Of a DNA stretch of 64,000 nucleotides, positions 1 through 8,499 are shown one piece after another. The position numbers and the translations under genes were made by a program. The DNA lies in the NCBI RefSeq assembly GCF_001422405.1, contig NZ_LMMV01000002.1, positions 124,001 through 188,000 of the forward strand. The letters run 5' to 3'. Source of the stretch: Pseudorhodoferax sp. Leaf267 (lineage in GTDB: Bacteria > Pseudomonadota > Gammaproteobacteria > Burkholderiales > Burkholderiaceae_C). Under the pieces are notes generated by a model. It ran no database searches, was not told where the DNA came from, and was given only the letters and a program-made list of their open reading frames with translations. Within the stretch, counting starts at the first letter, position 1, and every line of letters begins with the position of its first letter.

Positions 1-690
1 GCCGCGGAGCGCGCGCTGTCACGTCTGAAGTCGCGCAAGATTGCGACCACCGAATGCCCGGTGCTGTTCGAGTCGCCTCTGGCCGCCGGCCTGCTGGGCG
101 GGTTCGTGCAAGCCGTGAGTGGCGGCGCCCTCTACCGGCGCAGCACCTTCCTGCTCGACTCGCTGGGCAAGCGCGTCTTTCCGAAGCACATCGACCTGCT
201 CGAAGACCCGTTCGTGCCGCGCGGCAAGGGCAGCTCGCCCTTCGATGAAGAGGGCGTCAAGGTGGCGGCACGCACCGTGGTCGACGCGGGCCGCGTCGAA
301 GGGTATTTCCTGAGCACCTACTCGGCACGCAAGTTGGGCATGCGCAGCACGGGCAATGCGGGCGGCTCGCACAACCTCGTGCTGCGCTCGCGCCAGACCA
401 AGCCCGGCGACGACCTGAAGGCTATGCTGCACAAGCTGGGGACCGGCCTGTTCGTGATCGAGCTCATGGGGCAGGGCGTGAACTACGTGACCGGCGACTA
501 CTCGCGCGGCGCGAGCGGCTTCTGGGTCGAGAACGGCGAGATCGCGTTTCCGGTCGAGGAGATCACCATCGCCGGCAACCTCAAGGACATGTTCCAGGGC
601 ATCACCGCCGTGGGCGCAGACGCCTACAACTACGGTGCCAAGACCGTGGGCTCGATCCTGGTCAACCGCATGAAGCTGGCCGGCAGCTGA
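1..690 (+). CDS. pmbA: PmbA/TldE metallopeptidase-family protein, C-terminal part
   Basis: The reading frame is open from base 1, so the gene begins before the window; about 229 residues remain. The sequence (CPVLFESPLAAGLLGGF, then LLDSLGKRVFP, and VEEITIAGNLKDMF near the end) is the C-terminal domain of PmbA/TldE. This is the partner of TldD in a cytoplasmic protease that matures modified peptides and degrades antitoxins in enterobacteria. The HEXXH metal site of the family lies in TldD, so its absence here is expected. The gene converges on the minus-strand gene that ends at 704, leaving only 13 bp between them. Confidence 0.93.
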   Translation, partial: AAERALSRLKSRKIATTECPVLFESPLAAGLLGGFVQAVSGGALYRRSTFLLDSLGKRVFPKHIDLLEDPFVPRGKGSSPFDEEGVKVAARTVVDAGRVEGYFLSTYSARKLGMRSTGNAGGSHNLVLRSRQTKPGDDLKAMLHKLGTGLFVIELMGQGVNYVTGDYSRGASGFWVENGEIAFPVEEITIAGNLKDMFQGITAVGADAYNYGAKTVGSILVNRMKLAGS

Positions 691-703
691 AGCCGGCGCA
701 CGC

Positions 704-2488
704 TCACTGATCCTGCCGGCGCTCGCGGCCGTCCTGGCGGAACCGGGGGTCGCCGGCCATGGGTCGCTGCGGCGCTTGCTGCTGCGGCTGCTGGGCACGA
801 CGCTGCTGCTCCTGCTGAGCGCGCATCGCCTCCTGCTGGCGCTGCTGCATCTGGCGCTGCTGTGCATCCTGCTGCTCGCGCATGAAGCGCTCCTGCTGGC
901 GGTGCGGCTCCTGCATCTGCCGTTGCTGCTGGTCCTGCTGTTGACGCAGCTGTTGCAGTTGCTGCGCCTGCTGGTCCTGCAACTGGCGCTGCTGCTGGCG
1001 TGCTGAGAACTCGCGCTGGCGTTGCTCCTGCAGCACCTGCTGGTGCCGCTGGTGCAATTCGTTGTTGGATTCGTCCTGCGACTGCTGATGGCGCCGCCAT
1101 TGCTGCTGCTGCTGTTGCAGGCCTTGCTGCTGCAGTTGCTGCTGCTCGCGCTGCCAACGCTCACGGCGGTCCTGGTCATCGTCGCGGCCCCCACGGCCGT
1201 CGCGGCCGGGCTGCATGCCGGGTCCTGGCGCAGGCAAGCCCAGCTGAGCGCCAACCATCGGTGGTCGCTCGCGTCGCGTGCTGCGCACGCCATCGTCGGG
1301 CCGCATGTCGCGCAGCGGCGTGGTCGTCACGGCTTCCGGGCGGCGCTCGAACTGGTAGCGCGGTGGCTGGCCGCCGCCGGGCCGCGCATAGCCGCGGTTC
1401 ACGCGGTCCAGATAGCGCTGGCTGGCGCCGAACGGCGGCCGCCAGGCCTCGCCGGGCGCGAGCGGGAACCAGTCGGCACCAGGCGCCTGGGCGCGCCCTG
1501 GCGGTGGCCGATGCCCCGGTGTGCCCGCGAAGCCGACCAGGGCTGGCGCGTAGGCCGGGCGGCGCGTGATCGGGCCGGGGACCCAGCCCCAGCGCGAGCC
1601 GGTCTGCACCCAGCGGCCATAGTGGAAGGGCGCAAAGCCCCAGCGCGCGTCATCGATCCAGGTCCAGCCCCAGGGGTGGACCCAGCGCCACTGGCCGTAG
1701 CGGTAGGGCGCCCAGTCGGCAACGGTCACGCGCGGGTACCACACGGTGCCATAGCTCACGTCGTTGACCCACTCGCCGTGCGCGTCGAGTTCCTGGTAGC
1801 CGATGGTTTCGCGCGACACATAGCGCGCACTGACGGACTGCTCTTCGGCCCGCATGCGGTCCGCCGCCCATTGGTCCAGGCCATCGCGGGCGCCCAGCCC
1901 CATCACGTCGAGTGCCAGCAGCTGCCGGCCGGCGTAGCGCGCCTGGCGTGGCGCGACGAGTGGCGACGACTGGCCGTTCTCGCCGTAGACCGTGACGGCG
2001 CCGGAGCGCACGCCGACGGCCGTGGTGTCGCCGGCCGGGTCGGCGTCGATCCTGAATTCGCCAGGGCGGTCGACCACCATGGCCAGGTTGCCCGTGTTGA
2101 CCTCGACGCGTTCGTTCGCCGCCAGTTCGCGCACGGACAGGTTCAGGCTGCCGTCGGCGAGGACCAGGCGCAAGGTCGCATCGTCCAGCGCGCCGATCTC
2201 CAGTTGGGCCGGGCCCTGCAGGCGCAGCGCGCTGGCGCCGGCATGGAGCTCGGTGCGGCTGCCGGCCGGCAGCCGGATGCGGTCACCGGCAGTCAGCGGC
2301 CAGTTCGCCTCGGCGCTCTGCCAGTCGTTGCTGCCCGCATGGGCCCATTGCGCGCCCGCGTCGGACAGCGACATGCGCGCGACGCGGTCCGGCGGGTCTT
2401 CCTGGGCCGTGGCCAGCGAGGCCGCGATCAGGCAGCCCAGGCCCAGTGCCAGGCGCGTCGCCCAGCGCTTCCAGACGGTTGTGGCCAT
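704..2488 (-). CDS. Secreted FecR/DUF6600-like protein with Gln-rich tail
   Basis: 594 residues. An N-terminal signal peptide (hydrophobic stretch ending near LATAQ, about residue 29) precedes a FecR-like beta region (about 60-190). A Trp/Tyr/Gly-rich block (about 220-320; repeated units such as YGQWRWV, WGFAPFHYGRW and GWVPGP) matches the DUF6600 type. The last 170 or so residues are low complexity, dominated by Gln with Arg and Glu, and encoded by long CAG/CTG-rich runs. Members are predicted periplasmic or outer-membrane proteins of unknown function, often misnamed as chromosome-partitioning proteins. It stands alone on its strand. The Q-rich tail suggests an extended or coiled-coil segment; no enzymatic residues are recognised. 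Confidence 0.85.
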   Translation of the reverse strand: MATTVWKRWATRLALGLGCLIAASLATAQEDPPDRVARMSLSDAGAQWAHAGSNDWQSAEANWPLTAGDRIRLPAGSRTELHAGASALRLQGPAQLEIGALDDATLRLVLADGSLNLSVRELAANERVEVNTGNLAMVVDRPGEFRIDADPAGDTTAVGVRSGAVTVYGENGQSSPLVAPRQARYAGRQLLALDVMGLGARDGLDQWAADRMRAEEQSVSARYVSRETIGYQELDAHGEWVNDVSYGTVWYPRVTVADWAPYRYGQWRWVHPWGWTWIDDARWGFAPFHYGRWVQTGSRWGWVPGPITRRPAYAPALVGFAGTPGHRPPPGRAQAPGADWFPLAPGEAWRPPFGASQRYLDRVNRGYARPGGGQPPRYQFERRPEAVTTTPLRDMRPDDGVRSTRRERPPMVGAQLGLPAPGPGMQPGRDGRGGRDDDQDRRERWQREQQQLQQQGLQQQQQQWRRHQQSQDESNNELHQRHQQVLQEQRQREFSARQQQRQLQDQQAQQLQQLRQQQDQQQRQMQEPHRQQERFMREQQDAQQRQMQQRQQEAMRAQQEQQRRAQQPQQQAPQRPMAGDPRFRQDGRERRQDQ

Positions 2489-3450: not shown

Positions 3451-4674
3451 TCAGATGGCTGCCAGGGCCTGCGCGCAGCTGAAGGCGCTGGCCCAGGCCC
3501 ACTGGAAGTTGTAGCCGCCCAGCCAGCCGGTCACGTCCACCACTTCGCCGATGAAGTACAGGCCGGGCTGCTTCGATTCCATGGTCTGCGACGACAGGTC
3601 GCGCGTGTCCACGCCGCCAGCCGTGACCTCGGCCTTGCGGTAGCCCTCGGTGCCGGTGGGCACGAGGCTCCAGCCGTGCAGGCTGTCAGCCAATGCGGCC
3701 AGCATCTTGTCAGGAACCTCGTTCACGGGCCGCTCCCAGGCCGGCTGGCGTTGCGACCAAGCGGCCGCCAGCCGGGCGGGCAGGCGCTCGGCCAGCACTT
3801 TGGCCAGCAGCCTGCGCGACGCGAGCTTGGCCTGCGGCAGCGCCGCATGCAGGTCGGCCCCCGGCGCCAAGTCCAGGGCCACGGGCGTCTGGGGCTTCCA
3901 ATAACTGGAGATCTGCAGCACGGCCGGGCCGCTCAGGCCGCGGTGCGTGAACAGCAGGTCTTCGGAAAAGCTGGCCTTGTCGCGCCGCGCGCCGGTGGCG
4001 ATCTCCACGGGCAGCGACAGTCCGGCCAGTTCAGCGAAAGGCTTCCACTGCTCGGCATCGAAGGTCAGCGGGACCAGTGCGGGGCGCGTGTCCACCAGGC
4101 GCAAGCCGAACTGGCGCGCGGCGCGGTAGCCGAAGTCGCTCGCGCCGATCTTGGGGATCGACAGTCCACCGGTCGCGATGACCAGTGAGCGGCCCTGCAC
4201 CGAGCCGCGGTCGGTGTCCAGTGCATAGCGCGCCTGGCCGTCGGCCACGCTGCGTATCTCGCGCACGCCGCAGGGCTGCCAGCGCGTCACGCTGCCGCCC
4301 GCTGCGCCGGCCTCGCATTCGCGCAGCAGCAGGTCGATGAGGTCTTCGGCCGATCGGTCGCAGAACAACTGGCCTTTGTGCTTCTCGTGGTAGCCGATGC
4401 CATCGCGCTGGAGCAGCGCGATGAATTGCTGCGGTTGGTAGCGGGACAGGGCGCCGCGGCAGAAGTGCGGGTTCTCGCTCAGGAAATTGCGCGGGCCGAC
4501 ATCGACGTTCGTGAAATTGGCGCGCCCGCCGCCCGAGATGCGGACCTTTTCGGCGACCTTTTCGCTATGGTCCAGCAGCAGCACGTGCAGCCCGCGCTGC
4601 TGGGCGACGCCCGCGCAGAACAGGCCGGCAGCGCCTGCGCCGACGACGATGGCGTCAAAAGTGGGGGTGTTCAT
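3451..4674 (-). CDS. BaiN/HI0933-family FAD-dependent oxidoreductase
   Basis: 407 residues. The N-terminal dinucleotide-binding fold (AIVVGAGAAGLFCAG, residues about 7-21), the GGGRANFTN motif and the C-terminal WLGGYNFQWAWASA segment are diagnostic of the YhiN/HI0933/BaiN family. These are flavoproteins, mostly of unknown substrate; the named BaiN reduces bile-acid intermediates in clostridia, so that name does not predict the substrate here. I chose the ATG at 4674 because the FAD motif follows directly; an upstream in-frame start at 4743 would run into the divergent gene. Only 7 bp separate this start from the divergent PqqD-like gene. Confidence 0.88.
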   Translation of the reverse strand: MNTPTFDAIVVGAGAAGLFCAGVAQQRGLHVLLLDHSEKVAEKVRISGGGRANFTNVDVGPRNFLSENPHFCRGALSRYQPQQFIALLQRDGIGYHEKHKGQLFCDRSAEDLIDLLLRECEAGAAGGSVTRWQPCGVREIRSVADGQARYALDTDRGSVQGRSLVIATGGLSIPKIGASDFGYRAARQFGLRLVDTRPALVPLTFDAEQWKPFAELAGLSLPVEIATGARRDKASFSEDLLFTHRGLSGPAVLQISSYWKPQTPVALDLAPGADLHAALPQAKLASRRLLAKVLAERLPARLAAAWSQRQPAWERPVNEVPDKMLAALADSLHGWSLVPTGTEGYRKAEVTAGGVDTRDLSSQTMESKQPGLYFIGEVVDVTGWLGGYNFQWAWASAFSCAQALAAI

Positions 4675-4681
4675 CGCGGGT

Positions 4682-4978
4682 ATGCTAGTTGCTGTGACTT
4701 CTGGACCAAATCCCGCATTCGATTTGCACGCGGCATGGCGCATTGCGCCCGACGCCGAGCTCCGTTTCCGCTTCTGGAACGAGGAATGCGTGCTCTACCA
4801 CGGCGCCGCTGGCAACACGCACCTCGTTCCCGAGCCTGTCGGGCGGCTGCTGCAGGCGCTGGCCGGTGCGGCCAACTCGGTCCATGGCCTGTCGGAACTG
4901 GTCGACCTGCATGTGGACGACGTCACGAAGTCCATGCAGGAGATGCGCCGGCTGGGCATCGCCGAGTTCGCGGCATGA
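4682..4978 (+). CDS. PqqD-like peptide chaperone of an HPr-rel-A-type system
   Basis: 98 residues. It reads like PqqD/RRE proteins: FRFWNEECVLYHGAAGNTHLV followed by a helix rich in Leu (PVGRLLQALAG) and a C-terminal winged-helix segment. Such proteins bind the leader of a ribosomally made peptide and present it to a modifying enzyme. It is the first gene of a unit; its stop codon overlaps the kinase start (ATGA). It fits the family NCBI calls HPr-rel-A system PqqD family peptide chaperone. The ATG at 4682 leaves 7 bp to the divergent oxidoreductase; a GTG at 4694 is an alternative start. Any promoter must therefore lie within the oxidoreductase gene. Confidence 0.82.
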   Translation: MLVAVTSGPNPAFDLHAAWRIAPDAELRFRFWNEECVLYHGAAGNTHLVPEPVGRLLQALAGAANSVHGLSELVDLHVDDVTKSMQEMRRLGIAEFAA

Positions 4979-5877
4979 GATTGGGCGAGCTGTCGGACGC
5001 AGCCCTGCGCGCTGCCTTGCGCGATGAGGGCCTGATCGTCGCCACCGGCCCGTTCCGCTTCCGCATCAGATCGCGCACCGAGCAGGTATTCCGCGGCCTG
5101 CGCCGGCTGTATCCGGAGTTCGAGATCTTCGAGCAGGGCTTCAGCGACTACGCCGTTCGCGTCGACCGCGTGGCCGGGCTGCGCGGGCACCTGCGGCCCC
5201 AGGTGGCTTTCCAGTTCGATGGCTTCGAGCCCTTCAAGCCCCTGCCGGCCAACCACGCCTACGCCTTGCTGGAGTGGGGCATGAACTGGAGCATGTCGTC
5301 CCACGGCCACCACTACCTGCTGCTGCACGCGGCCGTGCTGGAGCGCAACGGCCACGCCATCGTGCTGCCGGGCGACCCCGGCGCCGGCAAGAGCACCCTG
5401 ACCGCTGCGCTGTCGCTGAGTGGCTACCGTTTGCTGTCCGACGAGATGGCGCTGATCGACCGCGATACGGGCTTGCTGATGCCGCTGGCGCGGCCTGTGG
5501 GGCTCAAGAACAAGTCCATCGACATCGTTCGCGCCTATTCCAAGGACGCCGTGCTGGGCGAGGTGGCCCACGACACCCACAAGGGCTCGGTCGCCCACCT
5601 GCGGCCGCCCGCTGCCAGCGTGCGGGCATCGGACGCCAGCGCCAGACCCGCCTTCATCGTGTTCCCGCGTTGGGAGGAGGGCGCCGAGCTCGTGCTGACG
5701 CCGTGCGCCAAGTCCGCGGCCTTCATGCGCACGGCCCAGCATGCCTTCAACTATGAGCTGCTGGGCAGCACGGGCTATGACCTGATGGCCGACCTGATCG
5801 AGCGCTGCGCCTGCCATGAACTGCGCTACTCGCGCCTGCCCGACGCCATCGCGATGTTCGACGGATTGACGCGATGA
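4975..5877 (+). CDS. HprK-related kinase A
   Basis: 300 residues. The C-terminal half has the HPr-kinase fold: YLLLHAAVLERNGHAIVLPGD, Walker A GDPGAGKS (133-140) and SDEMALID (155-162) after it. The N-terminal 100 residues are unlike HprK. In true HprK this fold phosphorylates Ser46 of HPr; relatives in lasso-peptide clusters phosphorylate a peptide. The start is set by the ATGA overlap with the PqqD-like gene, and the stop overlaps the next gene in the same way, so translation is probably coupled. No HPr gene lies in the window, so the substrate is unknown; the secreted protein at 7064-7654 is a positional candidate only. Confidence 0.85.
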   Translation: MRLGELSDAALRAALRDEGLIVATGPFRFRIRSRTEQVFRGLRRLYPEFEIFEQGFSDYAVRVDRVAGLRGHLRPQVAFQFDGFEPFKPLPANHAYALLEWGMNWSMSSHGHHYLLLHAAVLERNGHAIVLPGDPGAGKSTLTAALSLSGYRLLSDEMALIDRDTGLLMPLARPVGLKNKSIDIVRAYSKDAVLGEVAHDTHKGSVAHLRPPAASVRASDASARPAFIVFPRWEEGAELVLTPCAKSAAFMRTAQHAFNYELLGSTGYDLMADLIERCACHELRYSRLPDAIAMFDGLTR

Positions 5878-6935
5878 GCTGGCTGCAGTCTCCGCTGCTG
5901 CGGGCCTTGCGCGACCCGGCCGTGATGGCCGGCTTCGGCGCCCCGCAATGGGACCTGGCGCTGCGCCAGGCCCGCTCGGCGGACCTGCTCGGGCGGCTGG
6001 CGGCGCTGGCCCGGCAGCATGACGGCCTGCTCTCCTGCCTGCCCGCGCCCGTGTTGCGACATTTCTCGGCCGCCCAAAGCGTGGTCACGCGGCAGCACAA
6101 GGCCGTGCACTGGGAAACGCAGCAGATTGCGCAGACCCTGCTGCCAACCGGCGCGCCCATGCTGCTGCTCAAAGGCGCGGCCTACGCCATGGCCGATGCC
6201 CCCGCCGCACTGGGGCGCACGTTCTCGGACATCGACATCCTGGTGCCCAAGGCGCAGCTGGACGAGGTCGAAAGCGCGCTGATTCTGGACGGCTGGCTGA
6301 CCGCGACCAGCGACGCCTACGACCAGCGCTACTACCGGAGGTGGATGCACGAACTGCCGCCAATGACGCACCTGGAGCGCCAGACCACGCTGGACGTGCA
6401 CCACGCGATCCTGCCGGAGACCGCGCGCATCCGCAGCCGGCCCGAGCTGCTGCTGGCTGCCATGCAGCCGGTGCCCGGCTTTGCCAACGTCCATGTGCCG
6501 GCGCCCACCGACCAGATCCTGCACTCGGCCTGCCACTTGTTCCATGAGGGCGAATGGGGCCATGGTTTGCGCGACCTGAGCGACTTGGACCTGCTGTTGC
6601 GCGCCAACGGCACGTCCGAAAAGGCGGGCCACGCGCTGCTGGCGCGCGCGCAAGCGCTGAATCTCACGATTCCCCTTGCCTATGCCGTTCGTTGCGCGCA
6701 CCGCGTATTCCAGACGCCGCTGCCGCAGGAGCTGCTGGCGCGGCTGCGCGATCGGTCCTGGATGGACGCTCTGTTCCTCCAGGCGGTGTCCACGGCCCAT
6801 GCGTCCATGGCGAGCCCTGCCTCGCCGTGGGCGCGACGCATTTTGTACATCCGCAGCCACTGGCTGCGCATGCCGCTGCATTTGCTGTTGCCGCACTTGG
6901 CACATCAAGCGTTCAAACGTGAAAAAGATACGTAA
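5874..6935 (+). CDS. PF14907-type nucleotidyltransferase
   Basis: 353 residues. MLLLKGAAYAM (96-106) and GRTFSDIDILVP (114-125, catalytic Asp pair D119/D121) form the nucleotidyltransferase core; the rest is helical with DQILHSACHLFHEGEWGHGLRDLSDLD segments typical of the family. These enzymes accompany lasso-peptide and HPr-rel-A-type clusters, where their acceptor is unknown. The start overlaps the kinase stop (ATGA). Third gene of the unit; 128 bp then separate it from the downstream secreted protein. Confidence 0.85.
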   Translation: MSWLQSPLLRALRDPAVMAGFGAPQWDLALRQARSADLLGRLAALARQHDGLLSCLPAPVLRHFSAAQSVVTRQHKAVHWETQQIAQTLLPTGAPMLLLKGAAYAMADAPAALGRTFSDIDILVPKAQLDEVESALILDGWLTATSDAYDQRYYRRWMHELPPMTHLERQTTLDVHHAILPETARIRSRPELLLAAMQPVPGFANVHVPAPTDQILHSACHLFHEGEWGHGLRDLSDLDLLLRANGTSEKAGHALLARAQALNLTIPLAYAVRCAHRVFQTPLPQELLARLRDRSWMDALFLQAVSTAHASMASPASPWARRILYIRSHWLRMPLHLLLPHLAHQAFKREKDT

Positions 6936-7063
6936 CAGGATGTCGGATTGACTTACAGTCGGTCCCCATCGCAGAGGTGCGGGATCGACAAGGTGTTGAT
7001 TTCAAAGAAAAATCGGATCTGGTTCGATTTTTGCTGACCACCTCGCAAGCAAGAAGGAAAGTC

Positions 7064-7654
7064 ATGCAAGAAATCGAGCAGATCAAGAACTCCGGGCGCC
7101 GCCGGCTGGCCAAAGGTGTGCTGGCCGGGCCTGCCGTACTGGCGTCCATCACGTCCAAGCATGCGTTGGGTGCAACTTACGTTTGTGCCGTGTCTGGCCA
7201 ACAGTCGGGCAATGTCTCACAAGGCAAGAACTCAGCCCCAGTCAATTGCGTTGCCGGTTTCAAGAGCTGGAAAGACCGCGCCAGCGAGTGCGGGAAAAAC
7301 GCTGAGTCGAGGAGCCGCAAAGCACCTGCTGAGTTCGGCGTCATGTACACCGCCCCGCACGACCCCAAGAAGGGCGCACCTCCGCTCGCAGTTGCTGCGA
7401 CCTATCATCAGATTTACAGCAATGTTGCCGGTCTGAGCTACACGCGCGGCGGTGACAACGCGCTGCTGCAGGCAGCCGCCACGGTGTATCTGAATGCGCT
7501 GGAGTGGCCGGTGGACTACCACGTCAAGGCGCCGATGTGCCTGAAATTGTTCGACGTGGCAGCCGGCAACCAGTCGATCCTGGACAACGGCCACAAGACC
7601 TCGTGGGACGCTGGCATGTGCAGGCAGTATCTGAAGACACTGGCAGGGCTGTAA
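7064..7654 (+). CDS. Secreted Cys-containing protein downstream of the kinase cluster
   Basis: 196 residues. I chose the ATG at 7064, preceded by AAGAAGGAAAG, over an upstream in-frame GTG. The N-terminus has a charged region, GRRRLAKG (residues about 11-18) and a short hydrophobic stretch (VLAGPAVLASI), resembling a weak Tat-type signal with a possible cleavage near HALGA. The mature part holds five cysteines (in CAVSG, NCVAG, ECGKN, MCLKL, MCRQY) and no domain I recognise. Its position behind the PqqD/kinase/nucleotidyltransferase genes and before a strong terminator suggests it belongs to the unit, possibly as substrate. That role is inference. Confidence 0.7.
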   Translation: MQEIEQIKNSGRRRLAKGVLAGPAVLASITSKHALGATYVCAVSGQQSGNVSQGKNSAPVNCVAGFKSWKDRASECGKNAESRSRKAPAEFGVMYTAPHDPKKGAPPLAVAATYHQIYSNVAGLSYTRGGDNALLQAAATVYLNALEWPVDYHVKAPMCLKLFDVAAGNQSILDNGHKTSWDAGMCRQYLKTLAGL

Positions 7655-7675
7655 TTCCACCTTCTGCTGCAAAAA

Positions 7676-7702
7676 GGCCCTCAGCGCGATGCGCTGAGGG
7701 CC
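7676..7702. terminator. Bidirectional intrinsic terminator
   Basis: Perfect 12-bp stem GGCCCTCAGCGC/GCGCTGAGGGCC with a GAT loop, followed by TTTTGTCT on the plus strand and preceded by AAAAA (a U-run for the minus strand). It separates the convergent secreted-protein gene and cobA and can stop both transcripts. Confidence 0.9.
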
Positions 7703-7710
7703 TTTTGTCT

Positions 7711-8499
7711 TCAGGCGCTGGCCGTGCGCACCACGCCATGAACACGGTCGTTCGCCAGAGCGTGCACCCCGTGGAGCACGTCGCCCACGATGATCACGGC
7801 CGGGCTGGCGATGCCGTGGTGGGCGGCCGTGTCGGCAAGGCCTGCGAGCGACGTCACCCAATGTTGCTGCTGCGCGCCGCTGGCATCGCGCACGATGGCT
7901 GCCGGTGTGTGACCGGGCAACCCGGCCAGCAGGCCCTGCTGCAACTGCGCGATGCGGCTCACGCCCATGTAGACCACCAGCGTCAGATGCAGGGCATGGG
8001 CGGTGGCGCCGACCTGAACCCAATCGACGCCGGCCTCGCCTGGTTTGGCGTGTCCGGTCAGGAACAGCACGCCATGGGCCCGGTCGCGGTGCGTGAGCGG
8101 CACGCCAAGCGAGCTGACGGCCGCCAGGCCTGCCGTGATGCCGTTGACCACAGCGCAGACGATGCCGGCTTCACGCAGGTGCTCAACCTCCTCGCCGCCG
8201 CGGCCGAAGATGAATGGGTCGCCGCCTTTGAGCCGCACCACGTGTTCACCCTCGCGCACGGCCGCAATCATGAGCTTTTCGATAAAGGCCTGCGGCGTGC
8301 TCTTGCAGCCACCGCGCTTGCCCACGTGGACGACGCGCGCATCGGGCCGCGCCCATTGCAGCACGTCGGTGTTGACCAAGTCGTCGACCAGCAGCACGGT
8401 CGCGGCCTCGATGGCCTTGACCGCTTTCAGCGTCAGCAGTTCGGGGTCGCCGGGGCCGGCGCCGACGAGGGTGCAGGTGCCTATGTTCATCGTGTTCAT
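7711..8499 (-). CDS. cobA: Uroporphyrinogen-III C-methyltransferase (SUMT)
   Basis: 262 residues, the usual size of a stand-alone SUMT. The N-terminal glycine-rich loop TLVGAGPGDPELLTLKA, the RLKGGDPFIFGRGGEE motif and MGVSRIAQL are diagnostic. It methylates uroporphyrinogen III twice with S-adenosylmethionine to precorrin-2, on the way to siroheme. Siroheme is the cofactor of NirB, encoded a few genes upstream in the same direction, which explains its place at the end of this cluster. The start overlaps the ybiB stop (ATGA). A second in-frame ATG three codons further is possible. Confidence 0.93.
   Translation of the reverse strand: MNTMNIGTCTLVGAGPGDPELLTLKAVKAIEAATVLLVDDLVNTDVLQWARPDARVVHVGKRGGCKSTPQAFIEKLMIAAVREGEHVVRLKGGDPFIFGRGGEEVEHLREAGIVCAVVNGITAGLAAVSSLGVPLTHRDRAHGVLFLTGHAKPGEAGVDWVQVGATAHALHLTLVVYMGVSRIAQLQQGLLAGLPGHTPAAIVRDASGAQQQHWVTSLAGLADTAAHHGIASPAVIIVGDVLHGVHALANDRVHGVVRTASA

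Follow-up and report, generated by a model that had tools for sequence, protein, structure and literature searches.

This study concerns a four-gene operon at positions 4682-7654 of a 64,000-nucleotide stretch of DNA of Pseudorhodoferax sp. Leaf267 (contig NZ_LMMV01000002.1, positions 124,001 to 188,000; the whole stretch is referred to below as the window). We consider it probable that the operon encodes a phosphorylating modification system for a ribosomally synthesized and post-translationally modified peptide (RiPP) resembling the linear polyphosphorylated peptides (LPP), whose substrate is the exported protein encoded at 7064-7654 and in which the leader of this protein doubles as an export signal. 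The first three genes (the trio) keep their order in related loci, and the exported protein and the kinase of the trio accompany each other in both directions. Moreover, the leader of the protein is more conserved than its core, one serine of the core is nearly invariant, the catalytic residues of the enzymes are retained, and in the home family the system is co-inherited with an XrtA-type exosortase. The elements of the operon are the following:

4682-4978, + strand: gene of a PqqD-type putative RiPP recognition element (RRE), open reading frame (ORF) of 98 amino acids
4975-5877, + strand: gene of an HprK-related kinase A, ORF of 300 amino acids
5874-6935, + strand: gene of an NTP_transf_5 nucleotidyltransferase (NTase), ORF of 353 amino acids
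7064-7654, + strand: gene of the putative exported precursor (class I), ORF of 196 amino acids
7064-7171, + strand: leader resembling a twin-arginine translocation (Tat) signal peptide, residues 1-36 (NSGRRRLAKG...SKHALG), with the cleavage point guessed by eye
7193-7219, + strand: candidate acceptor site Ser44-x3-Ser48-x3-Ser52 after Cys41, of which Ser48 (codon 7205-7207) is the most conserved

All four ORFs were found where the original prediction had placed them, and the overlaps that it had reported within the trio read ATGA at both junctions, i.e. 4975-4978 (PqqD/kinase) and 5874-5877 (kinase/NTase). Among related loci, 40 of 131 PqqD genes and 82 of 147 kinase genes likewise end in an ATGA junction. 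The precursor starts with the ATG at 7064, which is preceded by a AAGAAGGAAAG stretch; a GTG at 6977 is an alternative start further upstream.

The trio and its exported partner

The comparison was based on 147 loci: the window, 13 kinase relatives found by tblastn (L004-L016, not scored against TIGR04352), 93 loci of the home family over the TIGR04352 cut-off, and 40 loci of the phylum, drawn from 61 genomes over this cut-off. In total 154 loci were processed, and seven with kinases below the cut-off (L144-L150) were excluded. The loci were oriented on the kinase strand and read in six frames; species overlap between the two locus collections is possible. The kinase is present in all 6 genomes of the genus and in 104 of 399 family genomes, scoring above the cut-off in 93 of these, while the phylum sample contains 61 such genomes (over the cut-off) among 398.

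The claim that the three genes recur together was borne out. The NTase gene lies 3' of the kinase gene in 142 of the 147 loci (within 300 bases in 134, and 461-2385 bases away in the other eight), and in 131 the kinase gene is directly adjoined by a PqqD ORF. No NTase was found downstream of the kinase in L191, L194, L196, L199 and L201, the L196 locus ending 142 bases past the kinase.

Some loci are arranged differently. A large gene (about 565-754 amino acids) separates the kinase from the NTase in L181, L188, L190 and L204 (that of L188 matches no NCBIfam family at E 1e-20), and a similar spacing was seen in L189, L198 and L205. The L191 locus, in which no NTase was detected, has a class II precursor and a PqqD-like ORF (recognised by eye) next to the kinase but on the other strand.

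The search for a constant neighbour of the trio, which the original prediction had asked for, led to the exported protein. A protein of this kind with a twin-arginine (RR) leader is encoded near the kinase in 138 of the 147 loci after hand repair, and two more (L106 and L132) are truncated by a contig end. By one automatic rule, an RR-leader ORF was found directly upstream of the PqqD gene in 119 of 131 loci, compared with 46 of 987 control genes from the same loci. The window and the same-genus loci L071, L072 and L075 have the precursor gene 3' of the NTase gene and not before the PqqD gene. The distance between the precursor stop and the PqqD start has a median of 43.5 bases and does not exceed 120 bases in 118 of 120 loci, which leaves little space for another peptide gene there. 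When the neighbours were clustered (ORFs of at least 50 amino acids, smaller ones being left out), no other gene outside the trio was equally tightly placed.

The partnership also holds in the opposite direction. Across 250 family genomes (G000-G002 and G006-G252, membership being taken from their labels), profile A5, made of 37 precursor starts, matched 63 genomes: 61 of the 62 kinase-positive ones (some by construction, because the A5 rows come partly from the searched genomes) and 2 of the 188 kinase-negative ones (an absence which this does not affect), both near the threshold (E about 7.5e-4). The sole kinase-positive genome that was missed is G202, whose precursor (L136) is of class II. 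In G088, G120 and G148, where two kinases each exceed the cut-off, there were 2, 3 and 2 matches, respectively. We conclude that the fourth protein is a dedicated partner of the trio, and very probably its substrate.

Altogether 134 precursors were picked, i.e. 90 of class I, 23 of class II, 5 assigned to both and 16 unclear. Among the unclear picks L209 was false and L197 was in the wrong frame (the real L197 precursor was found separately); the other 14 entered the class I alignment by default, and the five assigned to both entered class II. The precursors of L007 (on the opposite strand, beyond the NTase), L010, L108, L191 and L102 were repaired by hand, and most of the 8 automatic “downstream” picks were not precursors. 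Neither the window protein nor ten others had a match over the cut-off in Pfam or NCBIfam (two matches of the ten were weak). Precursor profile A4, which includes one wrong-frame row (L128), matched no solved structure, and the AlphaFold2 model of the precursor (alignment A6, 8 rows) had a pLDDT of 39 and an unusable fold.

Additional RR-leader ORFs were also observed: L070 and L082 carry a tandem pair before one trio, L102 has a further one far upstream of the PqqD gene, and two consecutive A5 matches occur in both G057 and G172, which belong to the same genus. In G057 (contig C30), a weak leader match at 2579-2662 (E 9.6e-4) stands beside a sub-cut-off kinase homologue at 1764-2012, hinting at a second, diverged system.

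The leader of the class I proteins contains RR in 102 of 104 rows, the two exceptions having QR and KR, and the residue at -1 is A in 79, G in 24 and S in one; against the general Tat consensus, these leaders resemble Tat signals. Over the 26 residues from RR the identity is 0.60, versus 0.38 for the core, and the leader is the higher of the two in 346 of 356 class I pairs (kinases 55-90% alike; the pairs are not independent). For comparison, an ordinary secreted protein that recurs in these loci (resembling a protease by eye, its leader set from a fixed anchor) gave the reverse picture, with 0.26 for the leader, 0.61 for the core, and a higher leader value in 1 of 91 pairs. Between the window and L075, of the same genus, the kinase is 66%, the leader 65% and the core 28% identical. 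Judged by its sequence, the exported protein looks like a RiPP precursor rather than an ordinary exported protein, and its leader appears to behave like one bound by an RRE.

In the class I alignment (MAFFT, 104 rows) the central Ser of the Ser-x3-Ser-x3-Ser motif is present in 102 rows (63 of 64 among rows less than 60% alike), Ser or Thr at the first position in 103, and Ser at the third in 85; the preceding Cys is found in 97 of 100 filled rows. Class II comprises 28 rows with shorter cores (91-150 amino acids, compared with about 109-267, median 164, in class I). In the 27 aligned proteins of this class a Ser near the mature start never varies, nor do Cys and Ser in the C-terminal motif C[WF]xS. 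Of the 25 class II proteins with the leader Pro, 24 have their N-terminal Ser 15 residues after it. In the window, P23 and S48 are 25 residues apart. Class II occurs mostly outside the home family (24 of the 29 rows labelled II on the kinase tree), and the precursor class switches 3 times on this tree (FastTree, 133 rows, without a shuffled control).

Several class I cores (e.g. L061, L054 and L100) share an SPG[YF]WKN motif, with LNA and YP motifs in the C-terminal half; those of L061 and L054 matched no Pfam family.

The trio proteins compared with known systems

The PqqD protein scores 34.7 bits against TIGR04353, just under the cut-off of 35, and its same-genus orthologues in L071 and L075 score 50.1 and 38.8 bits. 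The first match of the PqqD profile (35 relatives) among solved structures is the lasso RRE TfuB1 (6jx3, E=0.0027), with TbiB1 (5v1u, E=0.031) and PqqD (5sxy, E=0.16) among the further weak matches; there are 19 weak structure matches in all, designed helical repeats included (best 0.015). This accords with the PqqD-like, leader-binding type named by the original prediction, and we propose that the product of 4682-4978 may be an RRE which binds the leader of the exported protein.

The kinase scores 376.9 bits against TIGR04352 (HprK-related kinase A, cut-off 200), and its profile matches the solved HprK 1jb1 (E=8.1e-5). The intact Walker A motif reported earlier was confirmed: K139 of this motif, H118, D156 and E157 are invariant in the 24-locus alignment A2. 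Lasso kinases require a His-Lys-Asp-Asp motif according to a review (PMC9266682), so that the last residue of the motif is here Glu in place of Asp. From these residues, the kinase looks active.

The NTase scores 174.1 bits against PF14907 (cut-off 31.2), and its triad D119-x-D121 and D174 is invariant in alignments A3 and A7. Profile A3 found no sequence relative among solved structures. The AlphaFold2 model (pLDDT 92.2) is closest in fold to MenT1 (E 7.4e-4, the sole match below 0.001), followed by ANT(2'')-Ia and, more weakly, LnuA and the ribitol-phosphate transferase FKRP. The NTase also looks active by these criteria, and nucleotidyl transfer and sugar-phosphate transfer would each fit. 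PsmN is reported to add hexoses to a phosphorylated lasso peptide (PMC9266682).

By its kinase, the operon belongs to the HPr-rel-A system, which is defined by an adjacent NTP_transf_5 gene; the position of the NTase in related loci bears this out. The kinase lies far over the TIGR04352 cut-off, the PqqD protein 0.3 bits under that of TIGR04353, and the trio order of the relatives is kept, although the precursor gene follows the trio in the window and precedes it in most relatives. No substrate can be read from the database entry names, and both the exported precursor and its division into two classes are additions of the present analysis. In the literature searched, from which subscription journals are mostly missing, we found no paper naming the HPr-rel-A families and none combining two of HprK, PqqD and exosortase, which does not establish their absence from print. 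The claim that the product of such a system is not known agrees with this for the families by name, and goes too far as regards the kind of system: LPP, reported in 2026 from Bacillota, combines an RRE, an HprK-like kinase and an NTP transferase, and a Ser of its precursor is polyphosphorylated (PMC13381572).

In the manner of RiPP systems, the operon pairs an RRE (weak profile matches) with a precursor having a conserved leader and a variable core. The operon and LPP (lpp clusters, PMC13381572) share the discrete RRE, the HprK-like kinase, the NTP transferase, precursors (35-200 amino acids) with a conserved leader and a variable C-terminus, and polysaccharide loci nearby. LppA has its Pro at -13 and is phosphorylated on the Ser of position +3, and this spacing of 15 recurs between Pro and Ser of the class II relatives. 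The window, however, has a Tat-like RR leader in which YxxPxVL is absent (P23 has no Tyr or Trp three residues before it), the cores exceed the 45 amino acids of LppA, the candidate class I acceptor lies further in, no SipW-like peptidase or MsbA-like exporter is found among the four genes and two neighbours (they were not sought further out or in the whole genome), and the hosts are Pseudomonadota instead of Bacillota. Because the leader peptidase, the exporter, the YxxP motif and the Ser at +3 were looked for and not found, we do not place the operon in the LPP family itself.

The phosphorylated lasso peptides (PadeK of paeninodin; PsmK and PsmN of pseudomycoidin) have in common with the operon an HprK-like kinase and an NTP_transf-type enzyme which act on a precursor peptide, joined by an RRE (B1) where the cluster is of the split-B kind (PMC9266682). 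Unlike them, the operon and the adjoining genes contain no macrolactam cyclase or B2 protease, and the window protein ends in AGL without a C-terminal Ser; it is not a lasso peptide system. A lasso-cyclase reading of the AsnB-like genes which follow the trio in L188 and L206 was also rejected (over the TIGR03108 cut-off, under the lasso-cyclase cut-off).

Link to the XrtA-type exosortase and genomic surroundings

An XrtA-type exosortase, taken as a TIGR02602 score of at least 225 bits (a threshold set once the gap from 232 to 175 bits had been seen), is present in 59 of the 62 kinase-positive family genomes versus 7 of the 188 kinase-negative ones, 250 in all. None of the 55 genomes with other or weak exosortase matches alone carries the kinase over the cut-off. 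Counted by genus within the family, 34 genera have the kinase and XrtA, 2 the kinase only, 3 XrtA only and 102 neither. When the phylum sample was scored with TIGR03109, XrtA exceeded the cut-off in 25 of the 61 kinase-positive genomes versus 10 of the 337 others. In L188 the trio is flanked by the XrtA-system glycosyltransferases TIGR03087 and TIGR03088 and the amidotransferase TIGR03108, and in L016 genes for PrsK and PrsR follow the trio. To our knowledge, the role of the XrtA-type exosortase itself is poorly understood.

The genome of strain Leaf267 (6.53 Mb) contains a single TIGR04352 kinase; elsewhere it encodes TatC, two HPr matches, a canonical HprK and, on another contig, the XrtA-scoring exosortase. 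The surroundings of the operon within the window are as follows:

3451-4743: aminoacetone oxidase-family flavoprotein, upstream neighbour of the operon
7668-7716, + strand: hairpin with a T-tract just 3' of the precursor gene (RNA fold -31.4 kcal/mol, z -5.9), the probable end of transcription
7711-8499: uroporphyrinogen-III methyltransferase, downstream neighbour of the operon

No terminator was listed by a consensus scan. Both flanking genes look unrelated to the four-gene unit. At the left end of the window, positions 61-690 (+) encode a partial PmbA/TldE-type metalloprotease (NF008268, 261 bits versus a cut-off of 438), which covers profile positions 243-445 of 446, the remainder probably lying left of the window; some RiPP precursors are processed by TldD/TldE proteases. 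Positions 704-2488 (-) encode a Gln-rich, secreted-looking protein of 594 amino acids with no NCBIfam match at E 0.001.

Proposed mechanism and its alternatives

We infer the following sequence of steps. The RRE (4682-4978) would hold the RR leader of the precursor in the cytoplasm, and the HprK-type kinase would phosphorylate the conserved Ser near the mature start (Ser48 in the window, class I). To this phosphate the NTP_transf_5 enzyme would then attach a further group, which may be a nucleotidyl, a sugar-phosphate or a sugar. The leader itself would double as a Tat-type signal peptide, to be removed on export, and the product probably acts in an XrtA/exopolysaccharide surface system. A bolder extension, tentative and on the whole rather unlikely, would make these proteins pan-proteobacterial, protein-sized RiPPs whose RRE-bound leader is at once the export signal. 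RRE-guided (poly)phosphorylation of their conserved Ser and addition of a nucleotide or sugar-phosphate by the NTase would pre-arm the secreted proteins for covalent linkage to the exopolysaccharide of the XrtA/PEP-CTERM system, making them dedicated phosphoglycan anchors in the bacterial matrix.

Several observations weigh against the proposal that the exported protein is modified in this way. Co-inheritance of neighbouring genes does not prove an enzyme-substrate pair. No precursor was found in seven of the 147 loci (L143 and L193, both close to a contig end, L194, L200, L205, L209 and L217), and no PqqD gene was detected beside the kinase in 16; since the genome searches scored only part of the first-look candidates, absences in them are not proof. 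The central Ser is missing from L014 and L015, and the 14 of the 104 class I rows placed by default did not match the class I pattern. In class II the C-terminal Ser (27 of 27 aligned) is a second candidate acceptor. The motif [Y/W]xxP, which known RREs bind, is without its Tyr/Trp in the window leader, and the candidate acceptor of class I is not at core position 3, unlike in LPP. Deletion of lppN caused no detectable change in the LPP study (PMC13381572), and the NTase step is thus uncertain even in LPP. Finally, 36 of the 61 kinase-positive phylum genomes have no XrtA over the cut-off; 29 have no match at all, and the link between the kinase and XrtA is accordingly not universal, being weak across the phylum.

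A first alternative is that the exported protein is only a co-regulated partner, and that the trio modifies another substrate, for instance a small peptide or an envelope glycan precursor, with the secreted protein acting downstream. The occasional position of the trio within polysaccharide loci, as in L188, is in keeping with this, as is the action of some of the nearest NTase folds (ANT(2'')-Ia, LnuA) on small molecules. We nevertheless regard it as unlikely, given that an RRE is a peptide-binding domain, that the leader is conserved above the core, and that the precursor lies at a small distance from the PqqD gene with no equally tightly placed neighbour among the ORFs clustered.

It is distinctly less likely still that the protein is an ordinary Tat substrate, with the PqqD protein as a proofreading chaperone and the kinase regulating its release. 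The leaders do resemble Tat signals, TatC is encoded in the genome, and NCBIfam names TIGR04353 “PqqD family peptide chaperone”; yet no Tat chaperone appears among the 19 weak structure matches of the PqqD profile, and the conserved Ser and an NTase with an intact triad would be left unexplained.

A canonical HPr kinase/phosphorylase unit was rejected as next to impossible: despite the similarity of the kinase to HprK (the P-loop region and the H/K/D residues) and the HPr matches in the genome, it scores 16.8 bits against TIGR00679 (cut-off 240), whereas a different gene, located on contig C26, reaches 325.8. The original prediction that HPr is missing therefore applies to the operon and not to the genome.

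To conclude, modification of the exported protein by the trio remains the reading we favour. HPr-rel-A kinases are common, and a candidate substrate has now been named for them, together with two precursor classes, one Ser that can be mutated, and a tie to the XrtA-type exosortase in the home family. If the proposal is true, phospho-RiPPs would extend from peptides of Bacillota to exported proteins of Pseudomonadota, and the missing substrate of a widespread, uncharacterised bacterial system would have been named.

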